A DNA stretch of 64,000 nucleotides from Streptomyces sp. R41 (lineage in GTDB: Bacteria > Actinomycetota > Actinomycetes > Streptomycetales > Streptomycetaceae): NCBI RefSeq assembly GCF_041053055.1, contig NZ_CP163443.1, forward strand, positions 10,151,001 through 10,215,000, written 5' to 3'. A program made the position numbers and the translations under genes. Numbering within the stretch: the stretch's first letter is position 1; the number at the start of each line of letters is the position of its first letter. Below, piece by piece: positions 6,988 through 9,400 of the stretch. Below the pieces are notes generated by a model, which was given only the letters and a program-made list of their open reading frames with translations, did no database searches and was not told where the DNA came from.

Positions 6988-7668
6988 TCACGCCATCCAG
7001 AAGAAGACCGCGGTCATCCGCTTGTCCTCCATGGTGCTGCCGCAGTACTCGGTGGCGCTGTGCATCAGGTTGGCGTTGTAGAGCAGCAGCCGGTTGTACC
7101 GGTGCGGTACGGCGATGTCCTCGACGAACGAGTCCGGCGGGACGAAGCGCGTGCCCAGCGCCTCGACCAGATTGTTGTGCGGGGCGGCCACCACGTTGCC
7201 GCCCAGCCGTCCGCCGGGCAGGTTCTGCCGGTAGAAGCTGGTGCCGCAGTTCTTGGGAACGTTCGGATTCAGGTAGAGCACCGCGGCGTAACGGCAGAGC
7301 GCGCGTGAGTCGGTGTGGGGGCGCGGCTCTCCCTCGTCCTTGCCGACCACCTGGATGCAGTTGTGGTTGAGGGTGGCGCCGGACGGCGTCGTCTGCTGCC
7401 ACAACTTCTGGGCACCGGTGGCCTTCTTCACCAGCCGCTCTACGCGCGTCAAGTCCTCCGGCTCCAGCCCGGGCATCGTCCGCAGGCCGGGCCAGCTCTC
7501 CGACGTGTACGGGTGGCCCTTGACCCAGTCGTCCTTGGCGACGCACCGGGCCCGGACGGTATCCACGTCGGGCAGCACATTGTCGAAGACCCAGTAGTCC
7601 CGATCGCGGGTGGGTTTCCGATAGGGGAGGACCGGGAGCGCCGGTGTTCTTGGAGGTTGTGGGGGCAT
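6988..7668 (-). CDS. DUF6445-like 2-oxoglutarate/Fe(II)-type protein
   Basis: A 226-aa soluble protein. PRPHTDSRALCRYAAVLYLN supplies an HxD pair (H118, D120), and LLYNANLMHSATEY supplies a distal His (H203). This is the iron-binding facial triad of a jelly-roll 2OG-Fe(II) dioxygenase, and an Arg at about 217 is placed to bind 2-oxoglutarate. I associate it with DUF6445, a family of uncharacterised oxygenase-like proteins. The ATG at 7668 has AGGG 8 nt upstream; a TTG at 7719 would add 17 residues. The substrate is unknown. It diverges from the L32 operon. Confidence 0.7.
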   Translation of the reverse strand: MPPQPPRTPALPVLPYRKPTRDRDYWVFDNVLPDVDTVRARCVAKDDWVKGHPYTSESWPGLRTMPGLEPEDLTRVERLVKKATGAQKLWQQTTPSGATLNHNCIQVVGKDEGEPRPHTDSRALCRYAAVLYLNPNVPKNCGTSFYRQNLPGGRLGGNVVAAPHNNLVEALGTRFVPPDSFVEDIAVPHRYNRLLLYNANLMHSATEYCGSTMEDKRMTAVFFWMA

Positions 7669-7799
7669 GCGGCAGACCCTATAGATGCCCGTGTCAGCGA
7701 TCTCCAGAGATTTGGTCAATCTTCCGTCAACTCGGCGTGTTCGTAGGGCTGTCGACCAGCGAGGGATCGCGGCGGCGCGCCGGCCATCCTTGCTTGGTA

Positions 7800-7816
7800 A
7801 TGAGATCCATTTTCAT
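7800..7816. promoter_or_regulatory. Candidate Zur box before the L32 operon
   Basis: ATGAGATCCATTTTCAT is an imperfect palindrome 44 bp before the rpmF start. The right half (ATTTTCAT) matches the half-site of actinobacterial Zur boxes as I recall them (TGAAAATnATTTTCA type); the left half is weaker, 5 of 8 matches. Zur control of cysteine-free ribosomal protein paralogues is well established in Streptomyces, which raises the prior here. Confidence 0.55.
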
Positions 7817-7859
7817 ATAGCGTGGGGTCCTGCCGCCTCATCCATCCCAGGAGATCCTC

Positions 7860-8030
7860 ATGGCCGTCCCCAAGCGGAAGATGTCCCGCAGCAACACCCG
7901 TCACCGCCGCGCGCAGTGGAAGGCGGCCACGCCGCAGCTCGTGCCGCTCACCGTCGATGGCTCGTCGTACCTGGTCCCGCAGCGGCTGGCCAAGGCGTAC
8001 GAGCGCGGCCTGCTGCGCCCGGAGGGCTGA
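7860..8030 (+). CDS. rpmF: 50S ribosomal protein L32, cysteine-free paralogue
   Basis: A 56-aa protein starting [20 protein letters not shown], a direct match to bacterial L32. It has no cysteine, so it lacks the zinc ribbon of the zinc-binding form and is the C-minus type that replaces the zinc form during zinc starvation. The start is set by AGGAG at 7849-7853. The next gene starts only 1 nt after the stop, so the two are co-translated. L32 normally sits with housekeeping genes; here it heads an operon with a P-loop ATPase and a candidate Zur box, so its expression is probably metal-dependent. Confidence 0.9.
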
Positions 8031-8031
8031 C

Positions 8032-8988
8032 GTGCGCGCCGCCTTCGTAGGAAAGGGCGGCAGCGGAAAGACCACGCTGTCGGCCCTCTTCTCCCGCCAT
8101 CTCGCGCACTCCGGAGCGCCCCTCGTCGCCATCGACGGCGACATCAACCAGCATCTGGCCCAGGCCCTCGGCCTCGACGACGACGCACTGTTCACCGCGC
8201 CGCCCCTCAGCGCGCGCCTGGGCGAGATCAAGGACCATCTGCGCGGCGACAACCCACGCATCACCTCGCGCGAGGCCATGATCAAGACCACCCCGCCCGG
8301 ACGCGGGTCACGCCTGCTGCGTCTGCTCGGCGACGACGCGGTGCACACCCACCACATCCAGGTGGTGGGCGGCGTACCGCTGATGGTCACGGGCGAGTTC
8401 GACGAGCGCGACCTCGGGGTGGCCTGCTACCACTCCAAGCTCGGAGCCGTGGAGCTCTACCTCAACCATCTCGTCGACGGGCCCGGCGAGTACGTGGTCG
8501 TCGACATGACCGCGGGCGCGGACGCCTTCGCCTCCGGGCTGTTCACCCGCTTCGACATGACTTTTCTGGTTGCCGAACCCACCCGCAAGGGCGTCTCGGT
8601 CTACCGCCAATACCGGGACCACGCCGAGGAGTTCGGCACCCCGATCGCGGTCGTCGGCAACAAGGTCACCGGCGAGGACGACCTGCTCTTCCTCAAGGAA
8701 CAGGTCGGCGATCATCTCCTGACGTACTTCCAGCACTCCTCCTGGGTACGCGCCCAGGAGCAAGGACGCCCCCAGGGCGAGCTGGAACCGCACAACATCC
8801 ACGCGCTGCGCCAACTGCGTACCGCCCTCGACGCGCGCACCAAGGACTGGAAGGCCTTCCAGGGGCATGCCGTCGTCTTCCACCTCCGCAACGCCGCTGC
8901 CTGGGCCGACCGGGCCACCGGCAGCGACCTCTCCGCCCAGGTCGACCCCGACTTCCGGCACGGCCCGGCCGCCCTCCGCACCACCTAG
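8032..8988 (+). CDS. CooC/ArsA-like P-loop ATPase
   Basis: A 318-aa cytoplasmic ATPase of the SIMIBI class. The N-terminus has a deviant Walker A (GKGGSGKTTLS, residues 7-17), then AIDGDINQHLAQALG in the switch I position, VVVDMTAGADAFASGLFTRFDMTFLVAEPTRKG as the Walker B/switch II region, and a VVGNKV base-recognition strand. This layout matches the CooC-type maturation ATPases that load metals, and MinD/ParA relatives. The GTG at 8032 follows the rpmF stop by 1 nt. Its position behind a Zur-like box and a zinc-free L32 suggests a metallocentre-related role, but no substrate is visible. Confidence 0.75.
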   Translation: MRAAFVGKGGSGKTTLSALFSRHLAHSGAPLVAIDGDINQHLAQALGLDDDALFTAPPLSARLGEIKDHLRGDNPRITSREAMIKTTPPGRGSRLLRLLGDDAVHTHHIQVVGGVPLMVTGEFDERDLGVACYHSKLGAVELYLNHLVDGPGEYVVVDMTAGADAFASGLFTRFDMTFLVAEPTRKGVSVYRQYRDHAEEFGTPIAVVGNKVTGEDDLLFLKEQVGDHLLTYFQHSSWVRAQEQGRPQGELEPHNIHALRQLRTALDARTKDWKAFQGHAVVFHLRNAAAWADRATGSDLSAQVDPDFRHGPAALRTT

Positions 8989-9007
8989 CGACAGGAACCC
9001 CCTTTTC

Positions 9008-9400
9008 ATGTCACTCGACGTCTCCCCGAAGCTGCTCGCCGAAGCCGAACGCGGTCAGGTCCGCGAAGAGGACTTCGTGGAAACGGTTCGTACGTCCCTG
9101 CCGTACGCGTACGACCTCATCGCCGGCCTGGTCGCCGAACTGCGGGACGAAGCACAAGAGTTCACCGACAACCACACCCCGCCGCCCACCGAGAAGGAGC
9201 GCGGGCAGCTGCTGCGGGCGCTGGCCAGTGACGCGATCCGCGGCAGTCTGGAGCGGCACTTCGGGGTCTCGCTGGCCTTCATGAACTGCCACCGGGTCGC
9301 GGTCTTCCGTTCCGAGGCCCACGGCGGAGAAACTCACACCCGCTTCACCTCGCTGCGGTCGCAGATCCTCAACCAGTCGCCCGAGTTCCGCGACTGCTGA
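9008..9400 (+). CDS. Protein of unknown function in the L32-ATPase operon
   Basis: A 130-aa soluble, mainly helical protein, MSLDVSPKLLAEAERGQVREEDFVETVRTSLPYAYDLI..., that I do not recognise. It begins 19 nt after the ATPase stop and is clearly the third gene of that operon. Two Cys (one in FMNCHR, one the last residue) and several His (HFGV, CHRV, AHGGETH) could bind metal, but no known motif is present. It may act with the ATPase; this is inferred from position only. Confidence 0.6.
   Translation: MSLDVSPKLLAEAERGQVREEDFVETVRTSLPYAYDLIAGLVAELRDEAQEFTDNHTPPPTEKERGQLLRALASDAIRGSLERHFGVSLAFMNCHRVAVFRSEAHGGETHTRFTSLRSQILNQSPEFRDC

Follow-up and report, generated by a model that had tools for sequence, protein, structure and literature searches.

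What is a CooC-like ATPase doing one nucleotide behind a ribosomal protein gene of a kind already known to be under the control of Zur? The question is raised by a locus of Streptomyces sp. R41, within a window of 64,000 nucleotides (nt) (contig NZ_CP163443.1, positions 10,151,001 to 10,215,000) that belongs to a single-contig genome of 10.46 Mb and ends, on its right, ~247 kb from the contig end. On the + strand of the window, at 7798-9400, a Zur-type box is followed by a gene for a cysteine-free (C-minus) L32, then after 1 nt by the ATPase gene, and then after 19 nt by an open reading frame (ORF) of 130 amino acids (aa) from the SCO5389 family; a paralogue of each of the three proteins is present elsewhere in the same genome. 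We propose that this operon is a Zur-repressed zinc-limitation unit that combines a zinc-handling ATPase with an SCO5389-family partner, and from comparisons of sequence we put the probability of this reading at about 0.5.

A Zur-type box at the head of the operon

The box TAATGAGATCCATTTTCAT (7798-7816, + strand) has the 15-bp core TGAGATCCATTTTCA at 7801-7815 and is directly followed by what appears by eye to be a -10-like hexamer, TATAGC. The palindrome TGAWAATSATTWTCA, allowed 3 mismatches, matched the window once, at this core; since 17/100 shuffled controls also gave a match, the pattern is not decisive by itself, and we dropped the simple palindrome match as evidence and used a trained matrix instead. 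The published motif often fell on off-register sites upstream of ATPase genes. To train our 19-bp matrix we took 26 promoters of C-minus L32 genes with no linkage to the ATPase gene, which leaves the ATPase loci as a held-out test; 25 of the 26 fit the matrix, the outlier (L144) scoring 14.4 bits at -158. These promoters are of a class with known Zur binding, because Zur of Streptomyces coelicolor binds the rpmF2 promoter with a dissociation constant (Kd) of 68.3 nM (PMC6103462, available part). The window box scores 39.7 bits, the best non-overlapping site elsewhere in the 64 kb scores 9.4 bits, and the box is conserved in relatives, in agreement with an earlier note on this DNA that had pointed to a Zur-like box here.

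Across the whole genome the near-consensus ATGNNATNCATTTTCA has four sites (2 exact and 2 with one mismatch), and its reversed control has none. One is that of the window operon. A second lies in a divergent promoter (L252, rpmG2/rpmB2) between genes whose translations read by eye as C-minus L33/L31 and L28/S14, and a third (L254) in the promoter of a gene that reads, also by eye, as ZnuA-like. The fourth, a one-mismatch site at genome position 4952676-4952691 (L255), is near a gene that reads by eye as a phosphoglycerate mutase and is either a chance occurrence or an additional Zur target. In S. coelicolor, rpmF, rpmG/B, and znuA are established kinds of Zur target (PMC5472717 and PMC2823685, available parts), and the Zur list from chromatin immunoprecipitation on microarrays (ChIP-chip) holds 172 sites (PMC5472717, available part).

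The genome encodes five Fur-family proteins, and the one whose gene lies at genome position 3607796, ~2.7 kb from the znuA box, is taken as Zur by its place. With five such genes, and with L32 only rarely next to the ATPase gene (see below), the box might be read by a different Fur-family regulator or be nonfunctional, the L32 gene being there by chance; the matrix, however, was built from the class of C-minus L32 promoters that Zur binds, and the same pattern stands at the genome's own znuA and rpmG2/rpmB2 promoters. We regard this explanation as very improbable, and the predicted box as almost certainly a functional Zur box.

The L32 gene (7860-8030, + strand) encodes a protein of 56 aa that scores above the cut-offs of PF01783 (40.4 bits) and TIGR01031 (41.1 bits) and has 0 cysteines, while the genome's other L32, at 7456296, has 4. 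It is an ordinary C-minus member of the rpmF2 type with the usual promoter. In both respects it is like the C-minus ribosomal paralogues (rpmF2 and others) of the Streptomyces Zur regulon, and it differs from them in that here the ATPase gene starts 1 nt after L32, the L32 stop ending at 8030 and the GTG of the ATPase beginning at 8032. The zinc-free L32 and the 1-nt gap of the earlier note were thus both correctly read.

The conserved unit in Streptomyces

Is the three-gene order itself conserved? We refer to window-type copies as accessory and to the other, constitutive paralogues as core. The named relatives of the window locus are Streptomyces, and 80 named accessory loci were picked by similarity to the window ATPase. 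The neighborhood survey of rpmF-ATPase pairs recommended in the earlier note gave a divided answer: L32 is directly upstream of the ATPase in 5/80 loci (L039, L042, L043, L044, and L066) and in the window, so that L32-ATPase-SCO5389 is rejected as a conserved unit, whereas an SCO5389-family ORF of at least 120 aa lies downstream of the ATPase in 68/80, with one more of 118 aa and one that is fragmentary.

At 74 of the 80 loci, those with no L32 directly upstream and with enough upstream sequence, the box could be sought within 150 nt of the ATPase start, and 73 of these held-out promoters carry one of at least 12 bits (median, 24.5 bits). The L32-less loci have the box as TGACATTCATTTTCA, and the accessory ATPase box is often ACATGACATTCATTTTCAA, downstream, by eye, of a TTTGACA...TAnnnT-like promoter. 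The single miss, L051, has its box (39.9 bits) before an L32 gene that is followed by COG0523, ATPase, and SCO5389 genes. Random 150-mers reach 12 bits in 51/2972 cases, an upper bound because true sites were left in the source loci. Upstream of core genes, sites of at least 8 bits were found at 0/21 ATPase and 0/30 SCO5389 genes, and ten further core ATPase upstreams have matrix scores below zero.

Because the 80 loci had been picked by similarity, we added an even draw of 150 genomes of the genus. An accessory ATPase (at least 73% identity) is present in at least 34 of them, and at the 29 loci of this sample examined beyond the window's own the box is found in 29/29 and an SCO5389-family gene 50-217 nt downstream in 24/29. 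The SCO5389 family occurs in 149/150 of these genomes, and all 26 genomes with two copies are among the at least 34 with an accessory ATPase (26/26; Fisher 2e-22), a value that is not independent of gene order because the accessory ATPase and SCO5389 genes are mostly linked. The conserved unit is therefore the ATPase gene followed by the SCO5389-family gene, with a Zur-type box of its own.

The C-minus L32 is an occasional companion of the ATPase and not a fixed partner. It is found in 71/150 genomes of the even draw and is over-represented where the accessory ATPase is present (24/34 of the at least 34 ATPase genomes versus 47/116; p 0.002). Another explanation is that the ATPase and the SCO5389-family protein work on the translation side, acting on ribosomes into which C-minus proteins are built or exchanged, in remodeling, zinc release, or protection; we consider it improbable.

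The flanks of the accessory loci (up to 6 kb) are consistent with a place in zinc limitation. At least one zinc-limitation gene is present in 22/80, the counts per 80 loci being L32, 10; ZnuC-type, 9; ZnuA, 7; COG0523, 7; Zur-like, 7; ZnuB-type, 4; S18, 3; L33, 2; L31, 2; L28, 2; and S14, 1, and the domains of example neighbor genes were confirmed. The control set consisted of 21 core ATPase loci and 1 core SCO5389 locus, of which 20 span no more than 2 kb per side, and its sole hit was a generic ABC ATPase gene, at the core SCO5389 locus. In a like-for-like comparison wholly within 2 kb, a zinc-limitation gene is found in 16/80 accessory versus 0/21 core ATPase loci; these counts are not independent events, because some loci come from related strains. 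The locus of S. prunicolor (L049) packs ATPase, SCO5389, ZnuA, ZnuC, Zur-like, L32, and COG0523 genes into 7 kb.

The ATPase and its box beyond Streptomyces

In a class-wide sample of 246 genomes, 46 have the ATPase and 60 have the SCO5389 family, with both in 45 of the 46 ATPase genomes. Outside the genus, the SCO5389 family is present in 24/25 genomes that have the ATPase versus 14/199 that do not. At the loci of other families we looked within 150 nt of the ATPase for TGANAANNNTTNTCA, the core part of the actinobacterial Zur consensus as quoted in the available part of PMC5472717, and counted a box where 8 or more of its 10 fixed positions agreed. Such a box is present at 22/26 loci, compared with 1.1% of mono-shuffled sequences and 3.1% of random 150-mers (again an upper bound, true sites having been left in). 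Another two families of the order contributed 11 examined loci, every one of which has 8-10 of the 10 positions, giving 33/37 for the other families combined; SCO5389 comes after the ATPase, at no more than 230 nt, in 3 of these 11. At L218, whose SCO5389-family protein is closest to Frankia, genes for rpmB2, rpmG2, rpsN2, rpsR2, L32, rpmE2, the ATPase, a Zur-like protein, and SCO5389 fall within 9.5 kb. Within these samples the Zur-type box therefore goes with the ATPase family, the constitutive Streptomyces copy being the exception, and Zur regulation of the family, as predicted from its promoters, is strongly supported.

A relative of CooC with a C-x-H motif

The window ATPase (8032-8988, + strand; 318 aa, GTG start) is the accessory paralogue of a core ATPase at genome position 5710390-5711355, with 62% identity. 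Its best relative in the PDB is CooC (3kje), with E values of 7.1e-9 from the single sequence and 1.9e-14 from a profile; it matches CbiA at 27.3 bits (cut-off, 25.4), and a Pfam search returned no cobW (PF02492) hit for it, even with E allowed to reach 1. It has both the deviant Walker A (GKGGSGKTT, 8050-8076, invariant across 42 aligned sequences) and the D-M-x-A-G of the CooC/MinD type. In the HMMER profile alignment to 3kje, the family has C-Y-H (Cys132 to His134, 8425-8433) where CooC has C-Y-C, and we take C-x-C to be the metal site of CooC. Cys132 is kept in 26/26 other-family, 21/21 core, and 79/80 accessory ATPases, and His134 in 26/26, 21/21, and 80/80, respectively. The description of this protein in the earlier note as a CooC-like ATPase of metallochaperone type is thus in keeping with the comparative sequence evidence, and the odds slightly favor zinc binding at C-x-H, a putative site.

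With CooC, which serves the maturation of nickel carbon monoxide dehydrogenase (CODH), the window ATPase shares homology, the deviant Walker A, D-M-x-A-G, and a cysteine at the metal motif; it differs in having C-x-H rather than C-x-C, a Zur-type box, and a different partner. A role in CODH maturation was considered and rejected: PF03063 (Prismane/CooS) is absent from the Streptomyces sp. R41 genome, the one genome searched for it, and with no CooS-type family there such a role is unlikely.

Accessory and core ATPases differ at several other positions. The accessory proteins have His105, His108 (8344-8355 in the window for the stretch between the two), and His197 in 80/80, where the core proteins have Tyr/Phe, Cys (21/21), and Tyr, respectively; at position 143 the accessory residue is Tyr and the core residue is Cys in 18/21. 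A tree of 76 ATPases has an accessory clade (100/99) and a core clade (100/100) with the other families between them, and because its root is not fixed the age order of the two clades cannot be told from it. Five Streptomyces genomes (G009, G026, G098, G123, and G129) have a single ATPase match each, of the accessory type, and seem to be without a core copy.

A near-palindrome, TGCACATCATATGCA, recurs in 10 loci (L099, L101, and L112 among them), ~115-181 nt before the ATPase; it is not the Zur-type box.

The SCO5389-family protein

The earlier note had assigned the 130-aa protein (9008-9400, + strand; ATG start) to no recognizable family. This was wrong, because the protein matches over its full length both NCBIfam NF040488 (203.8 bits; cut-off, 75) and Pfam PF20704, KH_NucS_shadow (211.8 bits; cut-off, 27). 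Its fold gave no safe match, to KH proteins or others, in Foldseek searches of the PDB and a viral library; a profile run against the sequences of the PDB found no hit with E below 0.24; and in the parts of the literature available to our search, SCO5389 is mentioned in one paper, in a table of proteins.

The window copy is the second, accessory paralogue of this family in its genome, 68% identical to the core copy at genome position 7178238-7178627. It sits away from the core locus in a separate operon behind a Zur-type box, which argues that the Pfam "shadow ORF" family PF20704 consists of genuine proteins rather than of shadow frames. In the region 3210-4631 of L003, from the same genome, the core SCO5389 gene is divergent from a neighboring gene, which by its place is presumably nucS, and the label "NucS shadow ORF" therefore denotes no antisense frame here.

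Cys94-His95 (9287-9292) is common to the SCO5389-family proteins of every group examined, and Cys130 is also retained in the accessory proteins. Residue 26 (codon 9083-9085, Thr in the window) is Cys in 30/30 core and 15/15 other-family proteins and Thr in 68/69 accessory ones. Together with the three accessory histidines of the ATPase, this change is a hint of an altered metal site. It could also be taken to mean that the accessory pair are zinc-free stand-ins, doing the constitutive pair's job, not one of zinc trafficking, without a needed zinc ligand, much as C-minus L32 does: both proteins have constitutive paralogues without a box, the Cys26 of SCO5389 has become Thr, and the ATPase has His108 for the core Cys108 and Tyr143 where most core proteins have Cys. 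SCO5389 has lost a single conserved Cys/His position, however, with C94, H95, and C130 remaining; the C-x-H motif is present in core and accessory ATPases alike; and the other-family proteins keep Cys26 beside a Zur-boxed ATPase gene, so that the box does not track the loss of cysteine. We think this explanation unlikely, though less so than the translation-side one.

A proposed zinc-limitation unit

We favor the reading in which the ATPase handles zinc. Zinc-loaded Zur would repress the operon at adequate zinc, and as zinc falls L32, the ATPase, and the SCO5389-family protein would be made from one transcript. The zinc-free L32 would spare zinc during starvation. The ATPase would bind zinc through the C-x-H pair that stands where CooC has its metal site, the site probably lying between two ATPase subunits, and would deliver or salvage the metal using ATP, with the SCO5389-family protein as its partner or client; both would be starvation-time paralogues of the constitutive Streptomyces pair. 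These steps differ in likelihood. That the ATPase and the SCO5389-family protein act in one process is highly probable, and that this process concerns zinc is likely, while the chances that the action of the ATPase is that of a metallochaperone or of salvage are about even. The loading or recycling of a metal by the ATPase and the small protein, which the earlier note had suggested, is what we too would infer.

Several observations weigh against the proposal. The SCO5389 family is not only the partner of the ATPase, because outside the genus 14/38 genomes of the class sample that have it show no ATPase match. It lies directly after the ATPase (within 230 nt) in only 10/26 other-family loci, and no SCO5389 match was found downstream of the ATPase in 10/80 accessory loci, one of them on a contig that ends at the ATPase. 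Four of the 26 other-family loci fall below 8 of the 10 consensus positions (L224 and L235 with 7, L225 and L229 with 5), and another of the five Fur-family proteins could in principle read the motif. The predicted model of the ATPase, with a predicted local distance difference test (pLDDT) score of 50.4, is too poor to place H105, H108, C132, H134, and H197.

The nearest functional parallel is COG0523 (metallochaperone GTPases of the CobW/YciC type), a P-loop nucleoside triphosphatase (NTPase) and proposed zinc insertase under Zur in actinobacteria (PMC2823685, available part), for which Zur control is known (PMC2823685 and PMC2770081, available parts). Our ATPase is likewise a P-loop NTPase with predicted Zur control, and the two keep company: a COG0523 gene is found in 7/80 accessory loci and at least once, between L32 and the ATPase at L051, apparently in one operon. 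The window ATPase differs in that it belongs, without a cobW match, to the CooC/MinD side. To our knowledge, Zur-linked zinc chaperones of bacteria come mainly from COG0523, and among the papers listed in our literature searches, with most subscription papers and supplements outside reach, none was seen to place a CooC-like ATPase or SCO5389 in a Zur regulon. What we rate as new is a predicted Zur-controlled, metallochaperone-like NTPase of another lineage, together with a partner, for which L32 as lead gene is a rarer local arrangement. Somewhat short of even odds, and thus tentative, is the wider proposal that Zur controls another, so far undescribed kind of zinc metallochaperone, made up of a CooC-derived C-x-H ATPase and an SCO5389 partner; the pair would belong regularly to the zinc regulon of several actinomycete families, in parallel to COG0523, and in Streptomyces would be divided into constitutive and starvation forms. 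If it is true, the CooC-type ATPase, its Zur-type box being so widely conserved, adds a second zinc-chaperone lineage, the SCO5389 family gains a lead on its function, and the need of bacterial zinc trafficking for ATP-driven loading becomes testable with named genes.

Neighboring genes

A DUF6445 gene (PF20043, with a weak 2OG-oxygenase match) at 6988-7719 on the - strand is divergent from the operon, its start ~80 nt from the Zur-type box, which might serve both. A homologue is present in 4/80 accessory loci and is the divergent neighbor in 3 of these 4. More frequent beside the ATPase are an SBP_bac_5 solute-binding protein gene, a BPD-type permease gene (two stretches), and a GNAT gene, found in 31, 30, and 22 of the 80 loci, respectively; the SBP_bac_5/BPD genes lie upstream and divergent of the ATPase (as at L050), and the pair may import a metallophore or peptides. 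A further gene recurs in 10 accessory loci, L083 among them, its commonest place being 3 genes downstream and on the opposite strand; judged by eye, its start resembles that of an elongation factor G paralogue.
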